This document shows positions 2,387-58,900 of a DNA stretch of 64,000 nucleotides, in pieces. Under the pieces are notes generated by a model that searched no databases, was not told the DNA's origin, and was given only the letters and a program-made list of their open reading frames with translations. Location: NCBI GenBank assembly GCA_025526935.1, contig JAHLKD010000104.1:1-64000 (forward strand), given 5' to 3'. Positions within the stretch are counted from its first letter, which is position 1, and every line of letters begins with the position of its first letter. Source of the stretch: Cladochytrium replicatum (Eukaryota; Chytridiomycota; Chytridiomycetes; Cladochytriales; Cladochytriaceae). A program made the translations under genes and the position numbers.

Positions 2387-5300
2387 TTAATATGATAGGT
2401 CTTTTTGCGTGTGTTGTTGACGTGGCGAGTAGGTGATGGAGTAGTGTTTCGTTTGCGAGGTTGTTGGGGTGGTTGGTCGGGTTGTTGTTGTCGAAGGCTG
2501 ACCACTGGGTGCGCGTCGAACAGGAGGGACGTTCGCTGGTGTTGGTGTACTGTCTGGTGGTGCATCTGATGTTGATTTGCTGGGGCGTTGTTGCTTTCGT
2601 GATGAGGGTGCCCGAATGATTGTGGGTGGTTCAGCAGCAGCAATCGCACGTTGAGTGAGAGATTCGCGGTTTGCTGGGTTCGGGTGAGGGAATGGGATCT
2701 GAGAGGGCCAGTTATCGATTGGGAATACTGTCAGAGGTGAAGATGATGGTAGTTGTGGTCTTAGGTAGGGATGTAGTTCTGGGAAAGAAGATTCGTCAAA
2801 AACACAATCAGCAAAGCGAGCAGTGAACACATAGCCTGTATATGGGTCGAGGGCCTTGATAATTTTTGGTGTATTCGCTCCGATGTAGATGGCTAATGAG
2901 CGAACTGAGGAGGTTTTTGTTCGAGCTGGAGGTGGTACAGGAACCCAGACAGTGCAGCCAAAAATCCTAAAATGGTTGATTGAGGTTGGTAAACCAGATT
3001 CTACTTCTGCAGGGATTGCATAGTCCAGGGATGAGTGAGGTAGGTGGTTCTTGATGTTGCAGGCGTGTTCGAATGCAAGGTGCCAGTAATTTTGCGGGAG
3101 GTTGCAGCCCATAAGGAAGGTTCGGCCCATTGTGACGATGATGTCAATTCCTCGTTCAGCGATGCCGTTCATCTGAGGTACGTAGGGAACACTGGGCTCG
3201 ATAGTAATCCCTCTTGCTTGGCAGAAGTTTTCAAATGCAGCACTGTTCTGGTTATTGTCGAATCGTATCGCTGTGATTGGGTTGTCCGGGTGCTGGATGT
3301 TGTGGGAATGAATCTGTTGAACTGCAATGGCAAGGAACTGGTCAGTGGATTCAGATGGTGTAACTTTCATCAAACGTGATTTGGTCTTGATTGTCAGCTC
3401 AAATCCAGTATATCGGCCAACAGCTGGTGGGTAGATTGGTCCGGCATGGTCAGAGTGTAACATTTCGCCAAATCGTCGGTTTGTTGACTTGTCTTTAGTG
3501 TCGAAGGGGGCCGTCTTGAATTTTCCTTGTGCACATGGTTGACAGATTTCTTCATCAATGTCTGAAATGGAGGATGGGATGTCAGATTGACGTAAAGGAA
3601 TGAGGTGAGGGTGGTGTCTGATCAAGAGTTTCATGGAATCCGAGCTCTGATGCCCAAGTCGAGCATGATATCGTTTGTAGGCGGTGGAACGGTCTTTGAT
3701 TGTGGTTGGTGGTGTAATTTTGCGGCCAGAGAGATCCGTCATCGCAATCATATTGGCTGAAAGTTGAGCTGGGCGAATTCGTGCGAATGGGAGGCTGAGG
3801 TCAGGGTGACGGTCAAGTACTTCAACTGTCAGTTCAGTGGTGGCATCTGTAATGTAAGTTAGTCGGGATAATGCAGCAAAACTTTCCAAGTTGTTGTCGT
3901 GGAGGACATCGACAGGTATGACATTCTCTGTGGCTTCTGGAGCGAGAACAGCAAGGGTAATGTTAAGTACAGTTCCATTTTCCAACATAACTCGGGCGCC
4001 ACCAACTCCAATACCAAATACTTCACGTTTCCTTTTGATTGTTGTAACCCATTGGAGATCCGGACGATTTTCCAGAGTCAGGAAGAATTCGCGGTGTCGT
4101 AGGACAGTAACTCGAGCACAGTTGTCAATAAGGCAGGGGACTGTTGATTCGCTGTCGGTGAAGTCGACGATTGGGGGTGAATCTTCATGGTTGTCCTTTC
4201 CTACAGTAATGTTAGCAAAGTTGAGCATATACATCCCTGCAGCCAGTGGTTCCTCATCATAGCCGTCGTGGGCATAGTTCTCATCGTAGTAATATTCATA
4301 GTCCTGGTCATCACATTCTTCCTCTTCGTAGTACTCGTTGTCGACAACTTCTTCAGTCTGCTGGGACATTTGATCTGATGGGTAGGGAATATCGGAATCA
4401 GTATGAGAAAACATAAAGTATTGTTGTGAAGGTATGGGTTTGTAATTGCTAGTTACTGCGCGACGGCGAGGGCCATAAGAGTCTTGTTCGTTCTGGTAGT
4501 TAGGTTGTGGGTTCTGGGCCCTGAAGGCTTGGGCTTCCGCATTGGAGGTCGTGCACACCCTAGAGACGTGTCCATACTGGCCACAACGACGACAGATCAG
4601 TGGTGCAGGTTTCATATTCTTACCGCGGGTGGAACCATTTCCACGTCCACGAGGAGGGCCATATCCAAAATTGCGAGAGGGACCTCCACCACGGCGCATG
4701 CCACATCCGCGTCCACGGCCACGTCCACGGTAGATGAACATGTTCACTGGTGTTGTTGTTGTTGAAGGAAGTGCAGGGCCAGTTGGGACAGGTAAAGTCA
4801 GAGTCGATGTTGCCAGAGCCTGGGGGACAGGGATTCCATCATAGCCAATATTGAGCGAAGGTCCGCCAAGTTCAGCTTGTCTTTGTATTTCCAATCCATG
4901 AGTCCTGTCGTCAAGCATACGGGTGTAAAGATCATGATATTTAGTAAAGTTTTTGGCTCTCAATTGGTTGCTTATCGCGATGTCTTGTTCTTTGAAGGTT
5001 TCCAAGGTTTTTGTTATCATCTTCTCATCTGTGACTTCGGCAGCTTGTCCGATGCGCTTCATTTCGCCAGAAATTTTCAAGATCGCAGAGTTGTAGGCGA
5101 TGATGTCGACATAATCGGAGAGTCGAAGTTTCTGCCATTTTCGACGTACTTCAGTTGCAGCAGCATTCGCAAGTTGGGTGTAGGTCGTCTTGAGGTCTTC
5201 CAGAATTTTGCCCGGGTGGTACCATTCAGCATACTGAGCTCCAATAGTGTCAGTCGGCAAGGATTCCTGGATGAATAGCAGAAGTCGAGTTGCATTGGTG

Positions 5301-5503
5301 AACAAAATGTCTTCATCGGGGGTGAAGTTGATTTTTGCTGAGTCCAGGGTGCCATCATCATTGATGCCAGGGATGACTTTGTTTTTGTCCAAAAATGAGC
5401 GGAGACTGTGGGCGATGGCGATTTTCTGGATGTTGGCGTGCCAGGCAATCCAGTTGGATCCATCAGTCTGCAGGATAATCTTCTTGCCCTTCAAGTTGGA
5501 CAT
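2387..5503 (-). pseudogene. Copia gag - protease - integrase polyprotein part (decayed)
   Basis: A 1038-codon open frame. The N-terminal third is gag-like (it starts MSNLKGKKIILQTDGSNWIA and contains a copia-type gag helix region). It is followed by an arginine/glycine-rich stretch and a CCHC zinc knuckle (CRRCGQYGHVSRVC) near residue 305. The retroviral aspartic protease site, normally D-S/T-G-A, reads DNCAR here, so the protease is probably dead. The integrase shows the HHCC zinc region (HARLGHQ...CQPCAQGK), the first catalytic Asp (LHSDHAGP), the second in IRFDNN and the Glu in NGIAERG. The frame ends in a low-complexity Thr/Pro/Gln tail where another frame takes over toward the RT. A short open frame at 5491-5694 just upstream may be the true gag start. 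Confidence 0.88.
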
Positions 5504-5694
5504 GCTGAGTGGCGGTGGTGATGATCTGGGGTGGTAGTTTTGTTGTGCTGGTGGGCTGTTTTGCCTGTTTCCGTTTTGAGTAGAGCGGGTGCGACGTTTT
5601 CCGGCCAGTTTGGAGCTTGATCGCCGATGATTTGGAGCAGTGTGCTGATAACGTGTGAGTCTACTAGCTCTTGTGCAGAGAGGATCATTGTCAC

Positions 5695-6330
5695 GTGTTT
5701 ATTGATTTACGCCAGGACGGCACATTTGTATAGAGTGCACGTTTGACAGGGAAATAGTCAGTGAGACATCAAATCCAATATCTCCAAAAAAGCAACCCAG
5801 ATAACGAAATGAAGGCTTGACAGGTAGAGTTTGACCATGAAGAAGCAAAGGCGTAAACAAATTGCTAGATGATGATCTATTACGAGTTTGGACACCTCTG
5901 GTTATTTCTTCATGGGTTATATTTATTCCGGCCATAGGTATAGTAAACTGTCATTACTTTTCTATCATCCACTTGTAGAAGTTGAGCCCAGATCTGATCA
6001 GAGCAAAGGTTTACATATGATTAACGCGTTCGTGGGAATCATGTGCGACAACAATCCTGTTGATGATAGCTAGATCTCACGCACAGCTTAGCATGATTAT
6101 GCTTCGCTACGCCTGTGAGAAGAAGAGTCAAACCTTATCGCTGCTATCTAGAGCTTCCGGCAGGAAAAGCCGAAACGACAGTACACTTATTTAAGGAGCC
6201 TGTGGCGATACATACAAGGAGCGTTCTCTTGTGCTAGCACATGTGACTCGCAATTTTCTTTATTCATCTCTTATTATCATTAACCTTTGAATCGACACCC
6301 ACAACCTGAGGATCCAGACCACAGCTTTGT
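5695..6330. other. Non-coding stretch between two copia copies (possible LTR remnant)
   Basis: No supported gene. A short block near 6030-6070 shares ordered words (CGTGGG, ATCATGT, CAATCCTGTTG) with window positions 45-120, which would fit a strongly diverged LTR, but no TG...CA termini or primer-binding site can be fixed. Confidence 0.3.
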
Positions 6331-7236
6331 TCAACAAGCTTGTTGAGCAATCACATGCGGCGGTTGGTGAGTTCCGATGGTACTGAGATCAGCATAGAGA
6401 TAGTACAAATCTCTTTTCCGTCGCCCAATAATAACGTGTTCATCCATATCACCATGCGTGAGGATAACCTTGTCTTTGGTGAAACTCACAATGTCCCCGG
6501 AGTATACTACACACCGATGCAAGTGTGTCTTCGAGATCAGGAAATAAAGTGCATTGTGTATTATCTTAATTTGCCCATTGGGTAAAACTACAGATACATC
6601 TCCAAAACCACAAACTGGAATTGTATGACTATCCGCTAGTTCCACCACGTCCTCTGCATTTGTATACGTCAGTGAACTAAAGGCATGACGATTAGGTGTC
6701 ATTCAAACAGTTGCGCCTGTATCAAGCAAACCCACATGATCCTTTGCTTGAACATGTACACGGACAACCTTCTGTGCCGAGTGTGCGTTCACTATCGAAA
6801 ACATATTTCCGATGTATGTGTCAGCATCTTCATCAACAGAAGTAGGTTGGGTAAGGTCAAAGATTACCTTCTTGGTCAGCACCGGTTTGGTGGTTGACTC
6901 ATCCTCCGACAAATCGTCACCGGCATCGCCACCACTGGCAATGAATGCACGAAAATCTGCGTCTGAACAAAGACTCTTTGCAGTGAGATAGCGTTTACAC
7001 ACCAACTGCTTGTGTCCTCGTTTGACACAGAAGTTGCATGTGAGATCTATCTTCTTTGCAGATGAGGATGTGGACGACCTGGAGTCCTGCGACTGCTTGG
7101 TCCGAGTGGAACTGCTACTCCCACCGCTACTGCCTAAGCCACTTGAGGAACCGTGCTTACGGCATTGAGCATTGGGGTGAGATGAGTTCGGATGCAAGGT
7201 ATAAATATCCTCCGACTTCGCACCCTTGGCTTTCAC
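6331..7236 (-). pseudogene. Second copia-type remnant: zinc knuckle and protease, truncated
   Basis: Reading from 7236 down, a serine-rich basic region leads to a CCHC-like knuckle (CNFCVKRGHKQLVC), then an acidic linker and the aspartic protease site LLDTGATV. A TGA follows immediately, then the frame continues with MTPNRHAFSSL, the copia protease/pre-integrase context, and ends near IGRRKRDLYYL, the gag-pre-integrase region. The protease active site is intact, unlike that of the neighbouring element, and the sequence is not a copy of it, so this is a different copia family. It lacks integrase, RT and RNase H. It was probably truncated when the neighbouring element or a rearrangement removed its 3' half. 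Confidence 0.8.
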
Positions 7237-7381
7237 ACTTTCGCCTTTTGCCTTCTTCGCCTTCGCCAGTGTGATTAGACTAAAAATTCCAAAGCAGTGA
7301 TATCATCTATCATGATTAATGATTTATTAACATGTGTTACACTTGCATTCAAAAGGAATTTTGATTAATAAAAATCAAAGT

Positions 7382-10300
7382 TTACTCTGCTCTCAGAGCT
7401 ACAATCATACTTCTCCCTACTCCAAGTGACTGAATTGCTGTTGCTACACTTGTGTTGAAACCTGATGGTCCACATACAACAAATAAAACCCCCTCAAGCT
7501 CATCCTTTGTCAAATATTTGCTTCCTCCCTTTTCTGAAAGTTTTAGGTTATCATCTTCCATTTTACTGTGTGTTGCTGGTAATTCTTCAATATTTATCTC
7601 TTTGGCAAAATCACTAGCTGTACGCCTCAATACACTTGGTCTCCTGTGCAGAACCGTTGGTGGAGCTAAGGCTCCTACCTTAGATTCAAATTGACTCTTG
7701 GTGTCAGGTGATGTAATATAAACAGAAGGAATTTCTCTGAAATGACATTGTCGATAGTTATGCTGAATCACTTTCTTTATTAACTCTGCATTAATTGGTC
7801 CTATAAAACCTGCCGCAAAATTTGTGATATCTGTTCTTGTCACACCATGAATGACTGTAAGTGTGCCATGAGAACTGCTTGCTATCTAGTTTGAATCTTG
7901 TGTATGAGAATCGCCCTTCACATCAGGTATACTTTGTATATACCTCATTCAGCTTGTCCCACATAATTATGTCATTTTCTGATCTGTTTTTGCAGCACAA
8001 GGTTAGAATTGACACTCCTGTTTTATTGTCCTGCTCCACCCAATGTCCAAATTGTTTGTAATAGTCAATCAATAGAAGCATAGCTGAGAGTCCTGAGCCA
8101 CCCGCAAACATTACAACCTTGAATAATTGGTAAACTCTCTGAAGAAACTGCTTTCGCATTACTTACTCGCTTATAACAACCTGTTGGGTCAATCGGATGT
8201 ATCAATTGTAACTCTCCGGGGAACGGCCCGAGCATTCCCACAAGTTCTCCTATTGGCAGATTCAGAAGCTGGGACGTGAGTTGACCTTGAGGTATGCATT
8301 TAACCAGTACTTCAATATGTCCAACAGCCTCCATGAATATAGGAGAGTATGGTCTGTGTTCAAAGTTAAAAACAGAGAAATAAAACGTTTTAATGTGAAA
8401 TGACACACCTTGCCACCATGCCAGTTTCTCCTTTCTTAGAAATTTGCAAGATGACATGATCACCTGGAAAAAACCTTGCAAATGGTGTTTGCTCCCCGCC
8501 ACTCTCTTCTTGAGTAGTATTCACTTTTGCGCTCACTCCAGGAAGGGCAAACTTGAAAATGTACACTGGAGCAGTTGTTTGCTGGCTAACTACCAGACGT
8601 TTGCTCACTAGTTCCACTAAGCAAACTTTGTGTGGCTGGAGAATAGAAGCTTGATCTCCAAAGTATTGATGGATCCGCCTGTCCAGATGGGGAAAGCGTG
8701 TTTCCAGTCCATATGATTTTTCTTCTAGAGATTCATCAGCAAGAGTTCCAATGGCCATTTGAGTCAGCTGCGAGTATGCATAACGTGAATGCATGTGCAT
8801 TTGTATTTTTGTACGCTTCCCACTAGTACTTTGTTGATGGATATCAAGCTTTGGGGTTTTTGAGGTTTTCAAAAACATGCTGGTGCAATCTGATCCAATA
8901 ACATCCAAAATAATTCTCATTCCACCAGGATGGAGCTTTGCATCAATGTACGATCCAATATCATAAACAACACCATCAATCACAATCCATCTATCTCCAG
9001 CTTTAACCCGACGAATAATCTCGGTCCATCCATATTGTGGTAACGGGCGACCTAAGTCGTGCAACAAAGATTCAACTCGCCGCTTTGTTTTTTTGATGTC
9101 CTTTTGATCCTTTGCGCTCAACCAACCAGCAGATGTTGTTTCACCAGATTCACCGTTGATTGAAATCCCAGTTTGCTTTGGCATTTCCCCAAATATGACA
9201 AAAAACAGGAAAATGAGCACCATTAAAGATCCCAGCAAGTACTTCATCAGTATTGCTGCACGCTGTTGCTGTTCTTGGTCAGGCAAAATTGCAGTAATTA
9301 GTTCAATGCCAATAAAGCAGTTTGTAATGCCCAGAATCCATGTAGTCCAACCCAATAGTGCGTGAAAGTAGGCCAGAAGAGTCATAAGTCGAAAAAATTT
9401 AGCTCCCCGGTGCTCTACAGTGACTCCAATAGCCACATTGACAAGGGAAAGTATAAAGACAGTAATACCAATTTTGGCATGAGGCAACTGGATCATTGCG
9501 TCACTTGACAGTAAAACAGTGAGGGCTGAAATAGAAATGTCAGTGATTGCTATGGTCATCCCGTGAGCATGGTAGGTAATCCAAGCTAAAAATAAGCAAG
9601 AAAGTAGTTCAATCAAATTTGAAAGAAAATCAAACATTTTCCTAACTTTTGGGTGAATTTACTTACAAGATACTCGTCTTGAATACCTTTGATGTTTGTT
9701 CAGTAAAGAGAAGGTGCTGAGGAATCAACAAGTTACCTTGCAGAGTAGATACCCCAAGGATAGAATGCTCCGAAGCAAAATGCCATGACTGCACCATGAA
9801 ACAGCTTTTGTCCAATACCCCACGAGGTTGTGAAGAGAACAATCGTATCTTCTCCAGTGCTGGCATTATTTGATGCATTAATAGCAGTTGCATGGTTTGG
9901 AACAGATCCAAGAACAGAATCTAGCTTCTCTGCTAGCAACTTTGATGAAGTAGATCCACCAGCTGGGCAACCAAAAAACTCATTTGGTGTACCCAAGCCC
10001 CCAAAAGCCTGTATCACACATCCAGGAACCAAAAATGGTGAATTTGGATAGTCACTAATATCGGTGTTCCTCTTGATGATATTGGACAATGTTGTTTTGT
10101 CTATCTCTTCAACTTCATTGGCTGTATAAATACTTTCTGTCAAACCACCATTCTCTGTAGATACATGAGAAGATGAATTGTAGTTAGGAAGCAAGGGGCC
10201 ATACCATCGTCCATGCCACCATTCTTATAGTAATAGCGGTCACCGTTGCGTAAGCGTTCATATTGATCTCTTTTAACATGCAGTAGTCAAAAATAAAATA

Positions 10301-12328
10301 TATAATGAGAAGACTGTTCTCACTTGATTGCTGCACCAAACAATGGTCCTACTCTTGCACCTTGGAAAATACCTGGTTAAATGACACAAACTCCAATTAC
10401 ATCACTCTTACCGATCATCCTATTCTCGCTCAAACCACCCACATATGCGTCCAGGTTGTCGACAGACCCATATAGTGACTTGAGGATTTTTTGTTGTGTG
10501 AGATCATTTGTGATATCTGCAAAGGAGTTTGCAAGACGAAGACCAAAATGAGCACGTGCAGAGTTATAAGTTGGAAGGCCAAGATCCCTGCATTACAGTT
10601 ACCAGATAAATTGAGTGCGCCACATAAATCTTACCGTCCACGCTGGATATTCCATGCTGGAAGATCAAAAAGAGGTTCAGGAAAGAATTTTCTGACATCA
10701 TTCGTGAATAGCCCATCAACCAGTCTCTCTCGATGCCCCACTGCGCCGCGAAGTATTGAATCAATTCCATATCTAATGAATCCGTCGATTAAAGAGGTAA
10801 AACTGAACTAGTGCTAACTTACGATCTGACTGGGGAGGGGTTGAACAAGACGTCCCTAAGAACAAGCGGGCCTTCTACGATATCCGAGCCATTGGAGTCA
10901 ACTCGATGAAGAAGAGGTGGTATGGCCGAATGACCGTAACGGAATGCACACACCATAAAGAATGTGTCAATGCGTGGGTCAATGACTGGCGAATAACCTT
11001 CATATTTAGTCAGAGAAGAGCCGAGCACTGTGAAGCTATAGTCCACAAATGTTATCTTCTGGATAAATCCAATTACCATCTTTCTGGCTCTGAAAGTTAA
11101 TAGTTTCAGTTACTCATTAATTCTCTGAACTCTCAGAGCACTCACTCTTGGTAAAGTCTCTCATCATCCCAGTCTGGGTTTTGGTTGCTAAATTTGATCG
11201 CCAGTCGATTGTGCTCTCTAACAAACAATGTCTGTAATGATAACAAGCCAGGATTTTCGTTAGCGCGAATGTCTCCAGCTAGGAACACAGAATCCCCGCT
11301 GTGAATTCCGGAAGACATGATCGTTGAATTGGTTGATGCTTCAGGAAGCAATCCATTTCTGGTAGCTTCAAGAAACCCTCCAGCACCAGTCCGAAGATTT
11401 GAAGCCATCTCATCATCCGACCCTGCAGCGGAAAGGTCAAAAATAGTTTGGAGGGAAGCCATTGGACCCAGAGCACCATAAATCATTGACCCGTCTATGA
11501 ATGCTTTTGAATCTTGAGCTACTCCAACAATGAAGAATAAGAGGAGTTCTCACCTGTTACAAAGTTGATCGGATGTCTACTCATTGTTTCGGAGTCGTAT
11601 AGATGGAGCAGTCGTTTGAACGGCATTGTGATGTTTCCCATACAATTCTGCAAAAAATGTTGAGCTTGAGATATTCTCGGCTCATGCTCTCACATCCTAC
11701 AGTATCATATTGCAAGTCGCAGGGTGGGACGTGAATGGGCATGGGATCAGACTTATTTGATGCAGACAAAACCATATCGTGGGCTATGAACTGTTTTGTC
11801 TATAGTCTCTAGTGACAGCACAACGTAAAGAAGGTTGAAGTTACCTGGCCCCATAAAACAGCCAAGACGTTCGCCCCAAGTTCGCCCTCAACATCTTCAG
11901 CTCGTCCAAACAACTTATTGCTGACTGCTCTTGCCGATGGTCTAATCACAAAGTAAGAATACGTATTTGAGTATCGACCCCTATGGCGACCTTCCTGCTC
12001 CGACGGGCGTCGTTCCATCATCGTCATAGTCGGGCGGAACGTTCCGATTATTAACAGTACCCGGAGTTCCCCACGTTGAATGAATTAAGTTGTTGAAACT
12101 ACCATCGATCGAAGGGTATTTGGAAATCTCTCTACGACCAAGCACGCCAGAGCTACGTTGTGACCGAGAGCTATGTTTGCCGATTATTCTTCTGGCATCC
12201 AAGGACAAGGGACATTGTCGGTCTAGCCCAATGAAGTTTGGGTTGCATTCGATTTTTACTCCAGCTTGTACAACTGCTAGAAAAGCTCCCATAACGACCC
12301 ATCGGACAGTAGTTGCCGCTTCGAGCAT
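7382..12328 (-). CDS. Haem peroxidase - cytochrome b561 - cytochrome b5 - FAD/NAD(P) reductase fusion protein
   Basis: One long multi-exon gene. From the N-terminus: a signal peptide ([20 protein letters not shown]); an animal-type (peroxinectin/MPO superfamily) haem peroxidase domain with [11 protein letters not shown], the distal-His block [39 protein letters not shown] with catalytic Arg and Glu, [10 protein letters not shown], the proximal His in AFRYGHS, and WNIQRGRD; then a hydrophobic domain with His-bearing helices ([31 protein letters not shown]) like cytochrome b561. Next comes a cytochrome b5 domain with both haem ligands (HPGG and MHSRYA). Last is a ferredoxin-reductase-type module with the FAD motif RPYSPI, the nucleotide motif GGSGLSAM and the C-terminal CGPSGF. 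Frame-preserving introns (for example after VGAG and WGQ) tie the modules together. By analogy with DUOX, cytosolic NAD(P)H could reduce haems in the membrane and feed an outside or lumenal peroxidase. Topology is inferred. Confidence 0.85.
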
Positions 12329-12666: not shown

Positions 12667-14460
12667 TTAAAAGTACATGTCCATTGCTCGAACCAACCGC
12701 AGCTTTCGTGCATCCCCGGTATCAATGACGCCGAGGTCTTTTCGCCGGGCCACAAGTTTAAACCTTTTGTCAGAAAATACTGGCTTCTGTGTTCTGTCTT
12801 TCCATGCACTCTTCAACATGCGGTTCTTCTCGATTTCCAGCTGAGCCATGAGCTTCAACATCTTTCGAACCGGATCATATGGCTGCGGCTGGAAATCAAA
12901 TTCGAGATGCTCCAACGACTTTAAACTTCGCACAAGATCTTGCACCAACGCCCAATTATCCGGCATTAGGTTGTAGGAGTTGCCTTAATCCACCAAAAGC
13001 AAATAAGACTTTGCCACATTAGGCGAAATCAACAGCTAAACCTACCAGTGAGATCAAGCGCCAACAAACGATTTTGAATTGAGTTTGTGTCAATGATCAG
13101 GCGAAGAAAGAAATCCAATCCTCGATTGTCGTGACAATCGTTTATTCGAAGCTCCGTTATCGAGGAACTCTTGCTGAGAGCCTTGTGGACGCTCTCGAAC
13201 AAGTCAAACTTCAGAAAAGCCCCTTGGAGAACCAGCGTTTCCAACAAGGGTGCGGATCCGATAGCATCGGTCAAGTCGTTAATGGTTGATTCCGTCAGAG
13301 TGTCGATGTTAAGCTGGAAGAAGGTGAGTCTTGGGAGTCCTGGTTTAGAAATTAGCGTTGTAAATGGAGCTCTCAGTTGCGGACTAACCTCGAATGGCTT
13401 GGGAAAGCAGTTCGAGTGCTGCCGTCGGCATACTGTAGAACCTTGAAAGCACTAAGCGCTCTAGATGCCTAAAAGATGTGCTTCGAGCAAGGGTATTGGT
13501 AACAAAGCAGGACTGATTTTCCAGAATCGAGCCCGAAATTTCTAGAGACCGCATTGGAACCAAAGCCGCATCGTTTTCGGCGATCGCTGACACCAACGAA
13601 TTGTCGTAGGCAGAAAGCTTTGAGGCGATCTTGACGGATTGCAGCAATTCACACGACCGTAGAAAGAAGTTGACCCTCTCGACCGTGCCAAGCGGATCGT
13701 TTGCGCCCCATAGACCCCAGCAAACCTCTCTTAAAGATACACAGGAACGATGGAGTGTTGTTGTCAGAGCTTCTGTAGTAACCGCATCGATACGACCTAT
13801 CACATCGAACACGAGCTTGGAGAGGTGCTTTTGGTTGGAAAGTATTCTAAGAAACTGCTGCACAATTTTGCTTGCGTCAAGGTGGTTGAGATCAAGGTTG
13901 ATCCATAAAACCGTAGTGTTCAAGTTTACATTTGTCGAGACTATTGAGCAGATTCGGTCGAGCACTTGAAATCCTCGATCATTAGGCCAAGCATCGATAT
14001 AAAGACGGAAATTTCGCAGATCCATTCGCTTCAAAAGGTCCTCCCAGTCTTCCAGTCTCTCGTTAGCCTCGTCGCTATGTCCGGTGTAGCACACGCTCAT
14101 ATCCCTGAAGAAAGGGAGCAGGTCGGCGTGTTGGCCGAATGCAGAGCGAAAAGAAGAATCATGCCGAGGCTTTGAAGTTGGGCTGTTGATTGCAACTGGC
14201 AATCGATGCAAGGCTCCCGGAAGCAATACATCACGTAAACTCCCACAAGTTTGGACTAAATTCCAGCAATCAGCGAAATCAAGCAGGGAGGATATTGGTC
14301 CGTCGATAATCTCTCCCGGGAGGTCAACGATGGTCGTGCGAACGGTGGACGCCGATTCCATTGACCGACGTGAGTCAAACAGCTCGACCACCGACACACG
14401 TGTGAGAAATGACCATCTGAAAGACTTATTTTTTAGAAAGAGGGGTGTTCTAATCGACAT
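12667..14460 (-). CDS. F-box-like leucine-rich-repeat protein
   Basis: At least three exons (about 13384-14460, 13030-13380, 12667-12966). An F-box-like segment lies near the N-terminus (VDLPGEIIDGPISSLLDFAD then CWNLVQTCGSLRDVLLPGAL), matching the 'LP.Ei...I...L...dl......C..l' pattern. It is followed by repeated leucine-rich units (LSKLVFDVIGRID, LRSLEISGS, LERLVLSRFYS, LETLVLQGAFLKFDLF, ITELRINDC, LEHLEFDF), each about 25-30 residues. F-box/LRR proteins are usually substrate receptors of SCF ubiquitin ligases. The F-box match is weak, so that role is only suggested. An alternative start is the Met at 14361 (MESASTV), which puts the F-box closer to the N-terminus. Confidence 0.6.
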
Positions 14461-14548
14461 TCGGTGTTATTGGTATCGAACCAACAAGACCGCAAAGCAT
14501 GGTAGAGGATGATTTTGGAAATCTTTATTCCCGGAAAGACAAGTTGAG

Positions 14549-46300: not shown

Positions 46301-49300
46301 TAGTGATAGCTGCTCTGTATCAAGAAATCTGCCAGAAGATTGCCAAATTAGCACATCAGATGTTACAGGCGAGTTCTGATCATAGCGGCCCCTAGATATC
46401 CACAAGAATTACCTCTAGAGAGCTTTTCATACTAGATATATTACCTGATATCTGATTTACCATCAAGTACATTGAGAATAGAAGTGATAAGCTGCTTCAA
46501 TTTTCCAATATTTGTTAAACATCCAAACATGTACATAGACCGAATTAGTTTAAGCAGTGACAACATAAATAGATTAGCTGCTGTATCACTTGCTACTTGA
46601 ACCTCATGCATTTCAAGATAGTTCACTAGAAACTCAACAAGAATGCCAGTAATTCGTTCATTTACTAGTGATAAATTAACTGCCTCAGATGCACAACTTG
46701 AATTAGTCATAAGATTAGCTATTGAATAGCATTGAGACTGGATAGTCATTGGATAAGGAACTGTATCTATGAAGACCACTAATTTACATTTTAATAGTCA
46801 GCCAACAAACTAAAATTTCAAGAGGAGACAAACCTCTGAGAATTCTGCAGAATGCACTTCTTATTATGTCGGAAAGTCCATCATCCATCAATCCAATGAT
46901 GCAATCTTCTGCTGTTATTAATTTAAATTTTTTGGTGATCAATTCTGCACAAACTTGGTTGTTACTGTCACAAAGGGCCTCATATAGGTCAAGGATTGCC
47001 TCAAAGAAGATACTGTCTTTCAAATAATCAGAATTTAAGCCTTCCTGATCACTCAGCGAATGGATATTTTGTCTTGCAGCTGTGTTTGCTATCATGTTTG
47101 TATCAAGCAAATTGAGATGGGAAGCAGATGTCAGGCTCTCGTAGCTAGTTGGGCAAACTGCTTGAGGCTGATTTAGGAAGCTTGATGATGAGATGAGCGT
47201 ATTGGAAGCAGTTTTACTATAAGTTTTGGGGAACAGGTCAGCCAATTGTACCCACTCAAAATGTGTTCCGTTCTCCACATAAGAGCTCTTACGAATACGT
47301 ATTTCTAGACTCCCACCCTTAATTCTTATCTGGTTGAGAAGTCCTGAAACTGCATGATTTTCATCTGCTAGTCTAATACCATCAAAGTACAGTATATTGA
47401 ACGCAATAAAAATCTGATTTTGATAAACTGCTTGACCATTGCACCGGCAAAGAGCAATCAAGAAACCTAGATATGCAGGATCTTTATTTTGATCTTTATA
47501 GAGAAGTTTTACAAATTTCTGAATCTGTTGATCAGATATTGAACGCAATATAATGTCATTGCCATAAATCAACTGCATCAGTGTCTCAGCAGCACCAATT
47601 TGAAGGTCTAAATGTGCAGACATTGTTGAGAGACTATCATAAGACCGGGCAACATATAATTGATTTTCTTGGTCACTGCCCAATAAAAATTGTTTCAGTG
47701 CCCTGTACACCATTCTAAACACACGTGAGAGAGGCAGTTCTTCGTTACTCTTAACTCTATCCAGTTTTGCGGCATACACATTAACATCAGGTGCATCAAC
47801 AATTAGCTGGAAGTCTGAGGCTATATTATTTAACTCCTTCCAATTGTGTTGAAGCAGCAATCTGATCTGTGGGTCAAATGGAGTTTTAAGTAAGATGAGC
47901 AAAAGGTCTATTATTCCAATTTCACGAAGAAGATTTTGATGCTCTAAGATTGGGTAACCTTCTCGCTTCATTGGGTCTAGGATGTCTGAGAATGTGCAAA
48001 AGTATATAATTAATGTTGATATTTTGAGTATAGTCTGCTCTTCTTTCAAAGATATAGGAAACTTATTCTGATAACTTGTTGTAATCCTCGGATCTTTTGC
48101 AAATGACATAAGATAAGCAGCTAAAGGCTGAATGTGATTAAATTTTGATACACTTTCTTTGTCAACAATAGAAAGGGCAAAGTAATCTTCAATATTTCGC
48201 TCCACACATCCTGAAAACCGAAAAGGATTTGTAGGAGGCTTTCCAGTTAGTTCAACACTTGACCCAGCTCTTGACTGTGCATCTACACTATTCACAGCTG
48301 ATTTGACACCAATCCAGAGTTTTGTTTTGACATGTTGTAGTTGAGCATATGAGCCTGCACTTACATTTGGGTGATCCACATTTACTGGATGAAGAGTAAA
48401 AATCAAGTCCTCATGAACTTCAATGGAATTAAGTCTGTATGCCCCGAAGCACAACCTCAAGTGAATCACAGGGATTCTTTCATTTCCATCTCCAATTTTC
48501 TTGAGCTGTAGATATGCTCCACTAATTGGATGACGGAGTCTAACTGGTTTGCCCCATTCAATTGGCCCTCCAACAAGTTCTACACTATCGGCCCTCTCAA
48601 TCTGCCAGAAAACATTTGCAGATTGTGCATCTCTGGGATTTAGAGGATCAAGATAATAGTTGAAGATGTGAATATCATCCTCAATCGATTGAGACTGCTC
48701 AAAAATGTTGAAAGTAGTTTGCCGGCTTGGACTTGCAGGGACAGAACGCGACATGCTTTCAAGGCAAATATTTCTAAATGGAATTCCACTCCTCACTGCC
48801 ATGTAGCCTTCATGCTCCTTCAGATACAAGCGAATGAATGCCCCTGAATGTACTGCTCTGCGTTCTCTCATGTTTTTCAACTCTTTTGCAGCAGAAAAGA
48901 GTTGAAGGGTCCATCCTGAAGGCAAAGGAGACGTAGTTGCTCCATAAGTTTCGAGTTCCAAGAGCTCATTCTTATTTGGATTGATTTCAATGGTTAAATA
49001 CTCATGTGTCTTGAAACTCTGGAGCATCACTGCATCACCAATACGAACTGCCTCGCCCTCTGCACGAATCTTAAAGCGGGGTACAATTCGAAAGAAGCAT
49101 TCTTTTTTGAGGTGTTTTTCGAGAACCGAGTGTGACCTGTCTGCTACATTTTCACTGCCCTTTCCATTTGTGGCAAGATAACGCTCACAGTGAAGGTTGA
49201 ACAACTGAATTACACTTCCATAGAGAACTGTGGAGCCTGTTAAGTCAAATATCCCGGGAAAGATCTGCATACCATTACCCGGTCTATGCTTCATTCGTGC

Positions 49301-49803
49301 ACTCTCAACTGCATTCAGACGTTGCTCATTGGCTGCAGCTTGTACAAGCTCCGCAAGATGCGGGTCTATCGTTTTTCGATCTGTAGTATTTCCGTAAAAA
49401 AGATCAGCGTCGACATCGTTTCCGCTAGCCCTACGAAGTGCCTGAGGTCAATGTTTAGACAGAGTCTCTAAACGAATGCACGCCGATGAACGACAAACCT
49501 TTTCAGCGTGGAACGACTTCCTCATTTCTACACGGAAAACGGCCTTCATACAGTCCCCGATCAAAGCTTGAGAGGGCGGACAAGAAGCAGCAGCGTTCCC
49601 ACGATCAAGGTTGGAATGGACTTTTTCCTCGAGGTGGACATAAGCGCACTTTTTGACCGCACCGTCAGCGAACAAATGGCCGCGGTGAAGGTTTTCGCTG
49701 TAATTACATAGAAGATCAGCCAATTTGTGCACCTGCTCTGCAGACCAACTCACGAAAAGACCAGCAGGACCTCGTCTCCGTACGTTAGGGACCGGTTCAG
49801 CAT
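40307..49803 (-). CDS. Inositol 1,4,5-trisphosphate receptor-type calcium release channel
   Basis: A complete ITPR-family gene with about 25 short introns. The start reconstructs as MLNRSLTYGDEVLLVF (ATG 49803), spliced to ENLHRGHLFADGAVKKCAYV and ALIGDCMKAVFRVE, matching the receptor suppressor domain. A large exon (46784-49294) holds MIR repeats (STVLYGSVIQLFNLHCERYL, GDAVMLQSFKTHEYLTIEIN, GAFIRLYLKEHEGYMAVRSG, GKPVRLRHPISGAYLQLKK) and the first RIH domain. RIH and helical-solenoid exons follow. The C-terminus has several membrane helices (41073-41849), the pore filter GGGIGD (GGGVGD in animals), the inner helix NVIFGIIFDTFGQLREEHQ and the zinc-finger linker TCFVC...HHLKKEHN, HYLFFIVHLQIKDPTEYTSH. 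This is an ER or vacuolar Ca2+ channel. The residues that contact IP3 in animals look substituted (see findings). Confidence 0.95.
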
Positions 49804-52034: not shown

Positions 52035-54205
52035 ATGGAGCTGGACAAGCTGGCCAGACGGGTGGTGCGGGTGTGCCCACACGTAGCGTACGGGAACATA
52101 CTGCACGATCTGAGGACGACACACAGCGCAGAGGAGACAATCAACAGGATCTGCGACGGGCTGGTGCGTGGAACGGGATGATTTGTGATTTACAACTAAT
52201 GGTTCATGTTAGCTGGACAGTGGCAGACGATCCCCGAAGGCGCAACAGGAAAGAAATATACTGTCTTCGCAAGATGAAGAACTCCTCGAGCTTAACAATG
52301 GCGCTGTTGGCGTTCCTCGAGACTGGTCACCTCCGAAAAGGTATTTGAACGGAACCAACAATCATTCGCACTCTATTGACCGGCATCTGTCAACAGTGAT
52401 ATGGAATCTTTAATGGATGATTTTGAGGTACGTTTAGAACTTTGGGAGCAAGTTTCGTGCTTAATTGTGTGCCCATAGCATCCACATAGATCACTATCAC
52501 CAAAGCACATCAGCACAACCGAGATAGTCGACTTATGCAGCTCTCCAGTTGCTCCAATAGCATATCCTGAAGAGCGATTCAGTAGTCCGGAGCTAAATAA
52601 TCGAGAAACTCTGCCCAATCCACGCGCTACACAAAAACCTTCCCTAATAACTCTTGATTCCGACGACCTTGATCTGCTGGAGTATCAGCCTCGAAAAAAG
52701 GATGCTATATTGACATCTAAAACTGATATGACGAGGAGCGCACCAAAGAAAAGACCAACGCCAGAATACTTTGAGGAGCCAGCCAAGGTATGTGATGCAG
52801 GGTCAAAGTGCAAAGCTGATTGACGAGTTTTCGTTTTTTATCTTTTTCAAAAGCCCGCACGAAGAAAGAAAGCTGATTCAGGCACCGACAAGGCTGACAA
52901 GGAACTGGCTAAACTCCTTAAGCAGAAGGACAAGGTCTTATTCGGCTTTTGGCTATTTTTCACCTTATAACCGGAATATATAGGAAGAAAAGGCAAGGAA
53001 GAAGGCAGAGTTAGCCGCGGAGAAGCAGCTTGCCAAGGTTGCCCAAAGTTTTACTGCATTCATTTCATAGTTGCTCACGGTTGTCTCCATAGGAGGAGAA
53101 AGCGAAGCAAAAGGCCGAGGAAGCTGCCGTAAAGCGAGCTTCCAAAACAGCAAACAAGCTCCGAGCGAAGGACGATACCCTCGTAGACATGAAGGTTCTC
53201 CTCAACAGAAGATTGATTGAGTCCGGCTCCGGTGGGATCATACTTGCAAAGCTTCAGGAGGCCCAAGTACGTGTCCAGATATCCGATTTTCCGGACCCCA
53301 TTTCCGCGCGATGGCAGCGCAAGGTCACACGGGAGTGGGACGCCGAGAACGCGTGCTGGCACCCTTGCGACGAGCGGGTCGAAGACGAGGCGTACCTGGT
53401 CGTAGTGATGAACGGGACCGATTTCGCAAAGATCCTCGCGGATCGGAGCGGACTCCCTCCTGGAGGGTCGGCACCGCTCCGGCACGCAGCGCTGATCCAA
53501 GGACATCTCCCCGGCGCAACGATCATCTACATCATCGAAAGCATGGAGCAGTACTATCGATTCAAGGACAATGCGGTGAAGCGGACGTTTATGGAGGAAG
53601 TTCGGAATCGGAAGGATCAGGGGCGTCGGACTGCTGCGCGGGTTGTGCGGCAGACGCTCGAGTATAGCCAGTTGCCGGACAAGGATGGGATTGAGAATGG
53701 CCTGCTGGATCTGCAGATGGCACCGAATGTGCTGGTGCAGATGTCTGCGGACACAGCGGAAACGTCCGAGTGGATATATAACTTCACGCGGGAGCTTTCG
53801 ACGGTGCCGGAACTCAGGAGTCGAGAAGAAGCGTTGTCGCTGAACTTTGGCGATGACGTGAGGTCTGGGAAGGGACCTGCGGACAGCTGGGCTCGCATGC
53901 TCCGCGAGTTGCGGGTCATTGGCGAGCCGGTCTCGGTTGCGATTGCGAATGCCTATCCTACGCCGCGAGCATTGTTTGATGCGTATTCGAGCTGCGTGAC
54001 GTTGAAGGGGAAAGAGGAGCTTTTGGTTGGTATTCAGGTGAGGTCAAAGTTTTGCTTGTTTATCATTTGCCAATGACTGAAGTGTTAATGGAACAAGGTC
54101 GAACGAATGGCTGGGAAAGTCAACCAGAGCATTGGTGTCACTCGCTCCAAAAAGGTCTTTGCTGTTCTGACAGGAACCGACCCAAACGAAATTTTGGATT
54201 TATGA
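52035..54205 (+). CDS. EME1: Crossover junction endonuclease subunit EME1, with a probable N-terminal CUE domain
   Basis: EME1 is the non-catalytic partner of MUS81, cutting branched DNA in recombination. The core is ERCC4-type: LRAKDDTLVDMKVLLNRRLI, GGIILAKLQEAQVRVQI, DEAYLVVVMNGTDFAKIL, ATIIYIIESMEQYYR, TLEYSQLPDKDGIENGLLDL, VLVQMSADTAETSEWIYNFT and a helix-hairpin-helix-like end (VSVAIANAYPTPRALFDAY). It ends DPNEILDL, TGA 54203-54205. A charged coiled stretch (KEEKARKKAELAAEKQLA) precedes the core. The ATG at 52035 opens with VVRVCPHVAYGNILHDLRTT and SAEETINRICDGL, which match CUE domains. Introns 52164-52212 and 52341-52396 join it in frame to MESLMDDFE. A shorter protein from the ATG at 52401 is the alternative. 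Confidence 0.88.
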
Positions 54206-55745: not shown

Positions 55746-55951
55746 ATTGAATAGTGAATGAATCGAAACAATTGAAATAAATCCAGATGAATGTTTATTC
55801 CCATATTATTGTTGATTCCTTTAATTTCATTTACTGCTGCTAAATTGCATCTCTAGCACTGCTGACACTAGTCCCTGTCTTTTTACCATTCTTTCTTTTA
55901 TCCTATTTATGTGTGTTTCCCCCGGTCCGGGTTTTCCGTGTTGCTCTCCAC
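55746..55951. promoter_or_regulatory. Divergent promoter region (206 bases)
   Basis: A/T-rich sequence separating the starts of Sld2 (minus) and the Crinkler-like/LIM gene (plus). Confidence 0.45.
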
Positions 55952-58900
55952 ATGGAGCTGCCATGCCTGTGTCTGGGCGATCCGCCTGAAAAGGCCTTCG
56001 TGCTCAAGGCGGAGAAGTCCGACCGCTTGTCCGAGCTCAAGCTGAGGATTGCTGAGAGACTCAGGCCCAGATACCATCTCGCCGCTGAGGACTTGGTCCT
56101 GTACAAACTCAACGAGCCCCTTCCCCTGCACGACGACAGGCTCTCGCTGTTCGTCGCAATGGCTCCCAAAGAATGGCCTGACCCGCATGCCTACATAGAC
56201 CTTATCAAAATGGAGAATCCCCTGAAAAAGTTGTCGTTCTACTTCAACAACCCGCTCATCCACTCCGACCTCGACGATGATGACCTGCTGCAGGTTCTCG
56301 TCATCCTCCCAGCTGTCGCTCTTTCTCCGCCATCCGACTCTGTCTCGTCTTCGCTGGCTCGGGGCAACAATGACTACAATGTGCCCCAGTCTCCCCAAGT
56401 CGAACCTCCTCCCTACGAGAGCTCATTGTCACAGATGACCAATTTCTTCCACGACATCATGCAGAACAACCCCAGGGACTCGCCAAGTTTGTTGCCTCGC
56501 TCTGAAAGCAGGCTTGACTATCTCCCCCGAACTGACAGCAGCTCAAACCTGCTGCTTCGAGAAAAGGATAGAGCGTTTGCCCAAAATGGTGCCGAAGTTC
56601 GCTACGATCACCGCCAGAATTACAATGCCACCACTTCGTCTTCTTCGCTAGAACTCCATCACGCCCCTGCTGACCCACTTGTTCCCTACGACAACCACCG
56701 TGTCTCCACATTCGATGACATATTCGTTCCTCCCTCAACGACCTCCCTCGACTCGTTCCTCAACTCACATCCTCCAGAACCGTCCGTGCGTTCCGAACCA
56801 CCAAAGATGGACCTCCCTCCAGAACCCCAGGTCACAACAACACGGACCTATGTCCGAGCGTCCCGCCCTTCTTCCGCCATAGCCGCAAAGGCACCCGTCG
56901 CACAGAGCGAACCCATCGATTCGTCAGCCTCAACCTCTCAAAACGCGCCGTCCGCATTTGAAGACATCTTTGCAAACTGGAACACCTCCCTCGAAAGCAA
57001 TCTCGGACCCTTTGATTTCCAACCCATCGAACAACAACACCCAATGAGCCCCAGAGGCGGTATCGTAACACGGACCACGACATTATCCTCCGCGCCGCCT
57101 TCTGCCACATCACCCGTCACCGCGGAACGCTCCTCGATGACGTCCGTCCGCGTTGCAGTGCGACGCCCCTCCGTCGCACGGATGAACGGCCCTCCCCAGC
57201 TTCCACTCCCTCCCTTACCCAACAGGCTGTCTGGCAGATCCACCGTCAGCCGATCCAACACCGCACACAGCAGATCGTCGTCCTCGGACGTTGCCTCCCG
57301 CCACTTTTCCCATGTATCCGACCACCGAAATCCGGAAACCTTCAACGCTGCCGCCGCATCGTCGTCCTCGTCGTCAGCTGCAAACGCGTTTTCCGCCGAC
57401 GCAGCAGTGCACCAACAACAGCAGCAGCAGCAGGGCGCTTTTGGATTCCCCGGAGCAGTGCCAGGCACTTTTCGGGCGGTGTTGGGGTACATTCCGAGCA
57501 ACCCTGCCACGGAGCTCGAGATCTCGGAGGGCGACACGCTCGATGTGCTCGAGGTTTCGGTGGACGGACACTGGTGCTGCGGCGTCAACCAGTCCCGGGG
57601 TACCGCACAGCCGCGATGGTTCCCGATCACTTGCATCAGCTTCAGCTGCATGGTAATGGTTTGAACAGCATTTGTTGAATCACAAAAAATTTTAATGTGC
57701 GTTTTGGTTATTTGCATATATTTTCCCAGGACTGCCAAGAATTGGTTCGAGGCGACAACTTTTACCCCTTCCGCGACCCCAGCACCTCCACATGCCAGAT
57801 CCTCTGCGAGCGGGACTACAATCGCCGTCTCGTGCACTTCCAGCAATCGCGCCAGCAGCAGCAGCAGCAGCAGTACTCTGTGTGCGCGTCCTGCGGGGGT
57901 CATATCACGGCTGAGCATGTGTCCACGACGACGGGGCGAAAGTACCACCCGGAACACTTTGTGTGCGGGGTGTGTCAGGACCCGCTGGACCGGGACAGGT
58001 TTTTCGAGGAGGACGCGGGGGTGTACTGCGAGCGATGTTATGGGGAGAAGGTTGCGCGAAGGTGCGAGGGGTGCGGGTTGCCGCTGATTGTGGATTTTGT
58101 GGAGACGAGGACGGAGGGTGAGGGGGGGGCTGAGAGGAGGGAGGCGTGGCATGCGGAGTGCGACCATTTGCATCAGGTAAGAACGGTTCTTTCAGCTACA
58201 TCGAGACTTTTTCCTGCGAGCTTACATGATGGGGGTTTTTTTTGTGTGTGTTAGTTGTGGAATGTAAAACTCGGCCAGAGGATCACATCGCCGTCCAACG
58301 CCATCAGCGCAGAGGGTATGGGCGAAGACAAACTTGTATCTTTGATCAAAATCCCATTTTTGTTGGTTGGCAGGGATCGTGGATCTGACGGCCCAGGTAA
58401 CCGAACTCGTCTCACGGATCCTCACTGTCCTCGACGGGTTCGAAAAGTCGCTGTCGCAGTGCATCACCGACATGGTGCTCTCGTTCATCAAGCCGTCTTC
58501 CGAGCTCTCGTCCGAGTCTCGCGCGATGGTCGTCCGCGAGGCCGAGCGGCTCGTTCGGCATGTCGAGGCGCTCTTCATCAGCCTGGACGTCCACGATGCT
58601 AGGGATGATGGCGCAGAGTCGCGCGCGGCGTATGCGCTCGTGACGCGGTGGTTCCAGCTGCTCAGGCCCGCGGGTGGCAGTAGCGCGCGCGCGGCGGCGA
58701 AGGAGGTCGTGAGGGATCTGGGCGAGTTTGCGGGGATCGTGAAGCGGATGGTGCGGGTGGCGATGGACGCTGCGTTAACCGTGGTGAGAAAAGGAGTGGC
58801 TAACGGGAAACCCCACCTTTTTTTAATTGATATTTTTCAATTAGGACCAGAGAGCGTGTGCGAGCTACTCTGACGCGTGTCCGGCGGTCCAGCGCGTGCT

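Follow-up and report, generated by a model that had tools for sequence, protein, structure and literature searches.

A predicted fusion of a haem peroxidase with cytochrome b561, cytochrome b5 and reductase modules in Cladochytrium replicatum and its relatives

Does a single chytrid gene join a haem peroxidase to a transmembrane electron supply of its own, and is it alone in doing so? The question was raised by a locus on the minus strand of Cladochytrium replicatum contig JAHLKD010000104.1, of which positions 1 to 64,000 were analysed (64,000 nucleotides, hereafter the window). A first-pass annotation had read positions 7382 to 12328 as one gene encoding a peroxidase, a cytochrome b561, a cytochrome b5 and a flavin adenine dinucleotide (FAD)/NAD(P) reductase, and had compared the product with the dual oxidases (DUOX). 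Our model of this gene is a continuous spliced frame that starts with an ATG at 12328 and ends with a TAA whose last base is 7382. The frame is kept across all joins, and 16 of 16 introns, 35-81 base pairs (bp) long, run from GT to AG. The ends, the single strand and the frame-preserving introns of the earlier annotation were correct, and one more intron (11476-11423) was added.

Gene model and domain anatomy

The features of the gene are as follows.

12328-7382, minus strand: whole gene, 17 exons, 1370 amino acids, a single open spliced frame
12328-11991, 11941-11845, 11790-11701, 11647-11554, 11518-11477, 11422-11146, minus strand: exons 1 to 6
11089-10823, 10772-10635, 10587-10412, 10372-10324, 10269-10205, 10154-9737, minus strand: exons 7 to 12
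9686-9667, 9585-8409, 8353-8167, 8117-7944, 7885-7382, minus strand: exons 13 to 17
12328-12260, minus strand: N-terminal hydrophobic stretch, likely a signal peptide, residues 1 to about 23, from hydropathy alone
12118-10048, minus strand: haem peroxidase domain (PF03098), residues 71 to about 580
11790-11701, minus strand: exon 3, with distal His149 in WGQFIAHD
11476-11423, minus strand: the extra intron, 54 bp and stop-free, from alignments guided by the relatives P0002 and P0003
10932-10930, minus strand: proximal haem ligand His366 in RYGHS, histidine in 21 of 21 rows of the family alignment
10154-9737, minus strand: exon 12, which passes unbroken from the end of the peroxidase into b561 helix 1 and the histidine in it
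10047-9808, minus strand: short linker, the place of a DOMON domain in most relatives
9807-9182, minus strand: cytochrome b561 domain with His664, His696, His726 and His765, and a fifth helix
9013-8762, minus strand: cytochrome b5 domain (PF00173, 4.1e-11), ligands His909 and His956
8476-8221, minus strand: FAD-binding part with an RPYS motif and one intron inside (PF00970, FAD_binding_6, 3.1e-08)
8117-7382, minus strand: NAD(P)-binding part with GGSG and CGPSG, motifs conserved in relatives, and the stop codon

Splice sites were picked by conserved motifs and the extra intron by the guided alignments, which depart from the 17-exon model at a few sites (e.g. 10372 versus 10360). The initial model had 16 exons and 1388 residues; Pfam coordinates refer to that version and residue numbers to the 1370-residue version. 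Being short and free of stops, the additional intron is easily taken for coding sequence. Paralogue L019 has an intron at the matching place (1509-1559), and that intron contains an in-frame stop.

The model was built from DNA alone, and those of the relatives are likewise deposited gene predictions, so one could envisage two adjacent genes, a peroxidase and a b561-b5-reductase, that gene prediction had merged. However, exon 12 spans both the end of the peroxidase and b561 helix 1, so that neither a splice nor an intergenic gap lies between them, and this argues strongly against a two-gene reading. Furthermore, the identical order is found in four fused paralogues and in other species, and three groupings recur in trees of both halves. 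Two separate genes were rejected because the join falls within a single exon, and we give a merger next to no chance.

The deposited model, P0001, is a different matter. It fuses an upstream gene (12667-14466, minus strand) onto the peroxidase gene, omits exon 3, translates the 54-bp intron, is 7 residues longer at a later splice site, and stops short of the C-terminal NAD part. We think that P0001 is wrong where it differs from the 17-exon model. Since the omitted exon 3 carries the distal histidine, the active site would be scored as broken in a screen that relied on deposited proteins.

Each domain proposed at first pass was found again: a peroxidase with its motifs and a likely signal peptide, four histidine-bearing helices of b561 type, a b5 domain with both haem ligands and a complete reductase module. 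The An_peroxidase match (PF03098) in the Pfam scan of the 1388-residue model has an expect value (E) of 2.5e-127. In the alignment, the window copy holds distal His149, Arg273 and Glu276 (R-x-x-E), proximal His366 and Asn443, positions named after those of myeloperoxidase. The available part of a published description (PMC4420034) agrees with this naming. The second haem-ester aspartate is replaced by Ala148; alanine stands there in 13 of the 15 fungal rows covering the site. The solved sequences nearest to the window peroxidase are 8s6c (304 bits) and peroxinectin A, 6erc (279 bits); Dual oxidase 1 scored 190 bits.

Pfam did not call b561 on the whole window protein, and the b561 segment alone scored 20 bits (E 0.00088) against the Pfam b561 model, below the cut-off of 23. 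Among b561 segments of the family described below, 9 of 11 reach E 0.1 or lower against PF03188, the best with 1.4e-12. A profile of the 11 recovers the solved b561 proteins 5zle (3.1e-06) and 4o6y (1.8e-04), the third and last match of that search being noise (E 1.8). Of the 21 rows, 17 have this region present and aligned, and all 17 retain the four histidines; the fifth hydrophobic helix, seen by hydropathy, carries none. Judged from these profile matches, the membrane part is a b561 despite its score below the Pfam cut-off.

The C-terminal half follows the order of b5 and b5-reductase proteins, with HPGG and a second histidine preceding the RxYS/T, GG and CGP motifs. Pfam did not call the NAD domain in its scan of the 1388-residue model. 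A profile of five family sequences spans both the FAD and the NAD domains of cytochrome b5 reductases and also matches nitrate reductase; its best solved matches are 2eix (1.2e-40, the best E overall) and 5yly (9.1e-35). The C-terminus of the window protein can be aligned with those of its relatives.

The fusion family and its history

The first-pass annotation had implied that this gene reached its plan on its own, and had pointed to other zoosporic fungi as the place to look for the same domain order. A full-length protein search gave 3928 matches, of which 120 were listed, and the census of fusions is therefore a lower bound. Among the matches listed, models with the order peroxidase, b561, b5 and reductase occur in other Chytridiomycota (Irineochytrium, Borealophlyctis and two species of Boothiomyces, with two fusion genes in one species), in the blastoclad Sorochytrium (Blastocladiomycota), in a Glomeromycete deposited as Rhizophagus diaphanus, in the green alga Cymbomonas, in the brown alga Discosporangium and in the EukProt entry P0057. 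Shorter or partial models, all from Chytridiomycota, were found in Nowakowskiella (two), Quaeritorhiza and Fimicolochytrium; the second Nowakowskiella model and that of Fimicolochytrium end ahead of b561. In two metagenomic proteins a peroxidase, DOMON repeats and b561 are present but the reductase is missing. The plan is thus common to models of three fungal phyla and two algae, and is not peculiar to the window gene. The relatives are deposited as 'hypothetical protein', 'heme peroxidase' or 'unnamed protein product'. A database search with the membrane-reductase part alone gave no match at 1e-8; it also missed P0002 and P0012, which carry b561 and b5 and should fall in its length range, and we do not read the empty result as absence. 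Two proteins of Boothiomyces sp. JEL0866, P0053 and P0056, bear the consecutive names HDV06_006911 and HDV06_006912, come from contigs of equal length and are probably a tandem pair.

A maximum-likelihood tree of 57 peroxidase domains placed the 21 fusion-family rows on one side and 36 unfused domains on the other, with support of 100/99, and the split was present in 100% of 200 bootstrap trees. When seven long or partial fusion rows were removed from a quick tree, the split remained (Shimodaira-Hasegawa approximate likelihood-ratio test, SH-aLRT, 98). The 57 were taken from 151 proteins with a peroxidase domain and include partial fusion rows and no DUOX; the 36 unfused rows were collected with fusion proteins as queries and reduced at a threshold of 62% identity. 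A tree of 16 sequences from b561 to the end repeated the grouping of the window copy with the paralogue on contig C84 and Nowakowskiella, that of Cymbomonas with P0057, that of the paralogues C135 and C80, and the Boothiomyces pair. It does not include BoothMac, where the start motif could not be located, nor Nowak0078, Fimico, metaP20 and metaP26, whose models lack parts of the module or are misaligned there. One placement speaks against joint descent of the two halves: Quaeritorhiza, a long and incomplete row, stands with Boothiomyces in the peroxidase tree (87/85) and with Borealophlyctis in the other (99/95), and several forks of the latter tree were left open. Given the 100/99 split, the simplest reading of the trees is one old fusion followed by joint inheritance of its parts; they would fit vertical descent and transfer between lineages alike.

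The members differ in what lies between peroxidase and b561. A DOMON domain was found by Pfam in 7 of the 9 family members scanned. From the end of the peroxidase to the first b561 histidine there are 188-227 residues in rows with one DOMON (227 in the sister C84), 87 in the window copy and 64 in Quaeritorhiza, whose model also lacks the domain. The Pfam scan found no DOMON in the window copy, and none of the 21 DOMON matches in a genome search falls on the window contig. Since C84 and Nowakowskiella carry the domain, the window copy has most likely lost it. In the commoner form of the family, as far as these sequences represent it, a DOMON separates peroxidase from b561; the window copy belongs to the form that lacks it. 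In Cymbomonas P0063 and in P0057, where 413 and 550 residues separate peroxidase from b561, two and three DOMON-like repeats, respectively, were seen by eye.

In the C. replicatum genome, 25 exon-level PF03098 matches fall at six loci. Five of these (the window, C84, C19, C135 and C80) carry the fusion, with b561, b5 and reductase following on the same strand. At the sixth, C134 (L018), no b561, b5 or reductase was found downstream within the 9 kb examined; by eye it resembles a fungal dioxygenase-type peroxidase. For the C84 paralogue, the deposited model P0033 matches our own over its full length (100%) at 98% identity. Two genome protein searches with the membrane-reductase part found b561, b5 and reductase together only at the fused C19, C84 and C104 loci, b561 only at, for example, C76 and C145, and b5 plus reductase at C22 and C67. 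The same searches missed the fused C135 and C80, and an unfused copy is thus compatible with the result. The b5 and reductase matches at G000:C22:166613-167651 and G000:C67:153584-154603, both on the minus strand, lie close together with no b561 match. C135 (L021) and C80 (L022) are nearly identical, and each has an apparent SH3 domain inside the NAD-binding part; the C80 protein, the only one of the two among the nine scanned by Pfam, matches SH3_9 at 4.5e-05.

The residues of the peroxidase active site are kept to different extents. The proximal histidine is kept in all 21 rows, the catalytic arginine in 17 of 21 and the ester glutamate in 10 of 21, while the distal histidine is kept in 15 of the 19 rows that cover its position. 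The four rows without it are C19, C135 and C80 of Cladochytrium and the Glomeromycete, and the arginine is gone in exactly the same four. In C19 (L020, G000:C19:58500-67500) the distal histidine, the catalytic arginine and the ester glutamate are all replaced, with the proximal histidine and the chain motifs kept; in C135 and C80, glutamine stands at the distal-histidine position. All four rows retain the b561 and b5 histidines, four and two in number, as well as the reductase motifs. The loss of distal chemistry in rows that keep the chain motifs suggests that, of the two functions, electron export is required more often. A closer kinship of C19 with DUOX was rejected, its best solved matches being 8s6c (286 bits) and peroxinectin A (236 bits), with DUOX1 at 153.

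A candidate route for electrons

From the anatomy of the family and its resemblance to characterised proteins, the gene product is probably one membrane-anchored polypeptide that passes electrons through the plasma membrane to a haem peroxidase outside the cell; this confidence covers the electron-export chain and not a coupling through peroxide or superoxide. Electrons would pass from NAD(P)H to FAD, to the b5 haem and to an inner b561 haem held by His696 and His765, and from there to an outer b561 haem held by His664 and His726. In DOMON-bearing relatives they would probably travel by way of a DOMON haem before meeting an acceptor at the peroxidase. Where characterised b561 proteins use ascorbate, the b5/FAD/NAD part would supply the electrons here. 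We infer every electron step, the donor and the acceptor from the anatomy and from characterised b561 and b5-reductase proteins. One of these is HYP1, a CYBDOM protein described, in the available part of the source, as carrying electrons out of the cell and modelled with its first and third histidines on the outer haem and its second and fourth on the inner one (PMC10784544). We likewise infer that the N-terminus lies outside and the C-terminus inside, with the peroxidase exterior and the b5-reductase cytosolic, from the signal-like N-terminus and the loop charges: lysines plus arginines number 3 and 3 in the presumed inner loops and 0 and 2 in the outer ones, which fits an outside N-terminus.

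For the window copy, whose peroxidase site is intact, a DUOX-like coupling is our first choice, with O2 as the acceptor of the outer haem. Outward electrons would make hydrogen peroxide or superoxide beside the peroxidase, which would then oxidise wall, matrix or small-molecule substrates, as in DUOX-peroxidase systems; we place this a little short of an even chance.

Several observations weigh against these proposals. The window protein has 6 glycosylation sequons outside, where shuffling predicts 5.7, and 4 inside, where it predicts 1.5; these counts lend the topology no support. The second b5 histidine of Cymbomonas and P0057 is off the aligned column; by eye, a histidine stands two residues earlier in both. 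Characterised b561 proteins are reported, in the parts of the literature available, to reduce iron, copper or the ascorbate radical, and we know of none that reduces O2 efficiently. Without DOMON, moreover, the outer b561 haem of the window copy may be far from the peroxidase haem.

Two other functions would use the same parts. The protein could be an NAD(P)H-driven extracellular peroxide reductase, in which electrons re-reduce the peroxidase haem and NAD(P)H is spent to destroy surface hydrogen peroxide. The window copy offers what this needs in one polypeptide, namely the distal histidine, arginine, glutamate and proximal histidine together with the full set of chain motifs. However, the DOMON relay is absent from this copy, and the four rows that lost the distal histidine and arginine yet kept the chain motifs would be left unexplained; we consider such a function unlikely. 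Alternatively, the protein could be a surface ferric or cupric reductase whose peroxidase is secondary or protective. Retention of the four b561 histidines in every row with the region, including the four without a distal site, is in agreement with this, as is the reduction of ferric and cupric substrates by the b561-DOMON protein HYP1, reported in the accessible part of PMC10784544. A metal reductase would nevertheless have no need of the distal histidine that most scorable rows keep (15 of 19), and the genome already has loci of ferric-reductase or NADPH oxidase (NOX) type (14 PF01794 matches on 9 contigs and 15 PF08030 matches), which makes this role doubtful as well. Because of those loci, the fusion family is also no stand-in for a missing NOX-type protein.

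Finally, the window copy could be diverged or non-functional, having lost its DOMON and lying with its 3' end near a retroelement, the frames of which come within about 80 bp of the stop codon. In contrast, its frame of 1370 codons is open over 17 exons, the cofactor and catalytic motifs are intact and the C-terminus aligns with those of relatives, and we regard a dead copy as very improbable. Electron export to an extracellular peroxidase is the function that we prefer for the window copy.

Known systems and neighbouring genes

In plan, DUOX proteins resemble the window protein: a single chain combines a PF03098 domain at the extracellular N-terminus, a membrane part with two haems and a dehydrogenase of FAD/NAD(P)H type in the cytosol. 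As described in the available portions of PMC7794343 and PMC4420034, DUOX has a NOX membrane domain, EF hands and the partner DUOXA; the proximal histidine is missing from its peroxidase domain, and that of human DUOX1 showed no haem. In contrast, the family described here uses b561, b5 and a b5-reductase-type module, and the proximal histidine is present in 21 of 21 rows. At E 0.01 the window protein matched neither the NOX membrane domain PF01794 nor FAD_binding_8 or NAD_binding_6, although NAD_binding_6 matched 2 of 9 family members (best 4.2e-05). EF hands were found neither in the window protein nor among the 11 families matched by the nine members. Membership in DUOX was rejected on the missing NOX membrane domain, the missing EF hands and the retained proximal histidine. 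The DUOX comparison made at first pass was right about the anatomy and the join, but the plan is not peculiar to this gene, which seems to share one old fusion with its relatives.

Other systems resemble parts of the protein. NADH-cytochrome b5 reductase and the C-terminal half of nitrate reductase share the FAD and NAD domains after b5, and nitrate reductase has the order b5, then FAD and NAD domains. Those enzymes lack the peroxidase and b561, and the window protein lacks a molybdenum domain by Pfam. Fungal Ppo proteins, the linoleate diol synthases, are likewise fungal PF03098 fusion proteins in which the domain is joined to a P450; the Pfam scan found no P450 domain in the window protein. 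The solved chains of 8s6c (deposited as lactoperoxidase) and Dictyostelium peroxinectin A, with 528 and 511 residues, are too short for membrane and reductase parts. CYBDOM proteins such as Arabidopsis HYP1 share the b561 core with its four histidines in the same order, and relatives of the window protein have DOMON before b561. HYP1 itself, going by the available part of PMC10784544, consists of DOMON and b561, uses cytosolic ascorbate and has no peroxidase, b5 or reductase. DOMON-bearing ferric reductases of Naegleria and oomycetes, and the sponge DspNOX with b561-like helices, are built on a NOX/FRE membrane core, and PF03098 goes unmentioned in the portions available of their descriptions (PMC3591440, PMC9524095).

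A 2015 classification of the peroxidase superfamily recognises seven families, with DUOX as Family 7, in its available part, and nowhere in its main text mentions b561, cytochrome b5, DOMON or chytrid (PMC4420034). Chytrids are also unmentioned in the accessible part of a paper on Nox/Duox evolution (PMC1940245), and a review of zoosporic-fungus enzymes mentions neither peroxidase nor b561 (PMC6690862). We recognised no description of a peroxidase-b561-b5-reductase family in the open-access literature, judged mostly by listings, with subscription papers outside the scope. We tentatively propose, at a confidence well below even, that the family is an undescribed branch of the superfamily, found in three fungal phyla, a green alga and a brown alga, which arrived at the layout of DUOX by way of unrelated membrane machinery, and in which the peroxidase haem of the members without a distal site has turned from catalyst to electron relay or sensor; this is a joint claim that includes NAD(P)H-powered b561 export hard-wired to an extracellular peroxidase. 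Those members, three Cladochytrium paralogues and one from a Glomeromycete, look from their sequences as if they had taken the opposite course to DUOX, keeping the proximal ligand that DUOX has lost. The Glomeromycete lineage is known for mycorrhiza. If the proposal is true, an inside donor and an outside peroxidase were joined in one chain at least twice, with different membrane parts, and early-branching fungi gain a candidate surface redox enzyme not built on NOX. Intact and distal-site-lost paralogues in one genome also make the role of the fused peroxidase in DUOX-like proteins testable.

Other frames were noted elsewhere in the window. The retroelement frames near the 3' end of the peroxidase gene (2387-5698 and 6331-7302, minus strand) match SH3_retrovirus (7.9e-10), gag_pre-integrs (1.4e-05) and Pol_BBD (7.2e-08), and are taken to be copia-like. 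The upstream gene at 12667-14466 gave no Pfam match for its frame 13384-14466. A large frame at 46784-49447 on the minus strand has RIH, Ins145_P3_rec and MIR domains and represents an inositol trisphosphate/ryanodine-receptor-like gene in a fungus. On the plus strand, 53093-54076 is an EME1/MUS81-like nuclease frame (EME1-MUS81_C 4.7e-11, ERCC4 8.8e-07), and 55844-57664, a frame of 606 amino acids, matches the Crinkler N-terminal domain (3.5e-07), is of low complexity in its middle and ends in what by eye looks like SH3.

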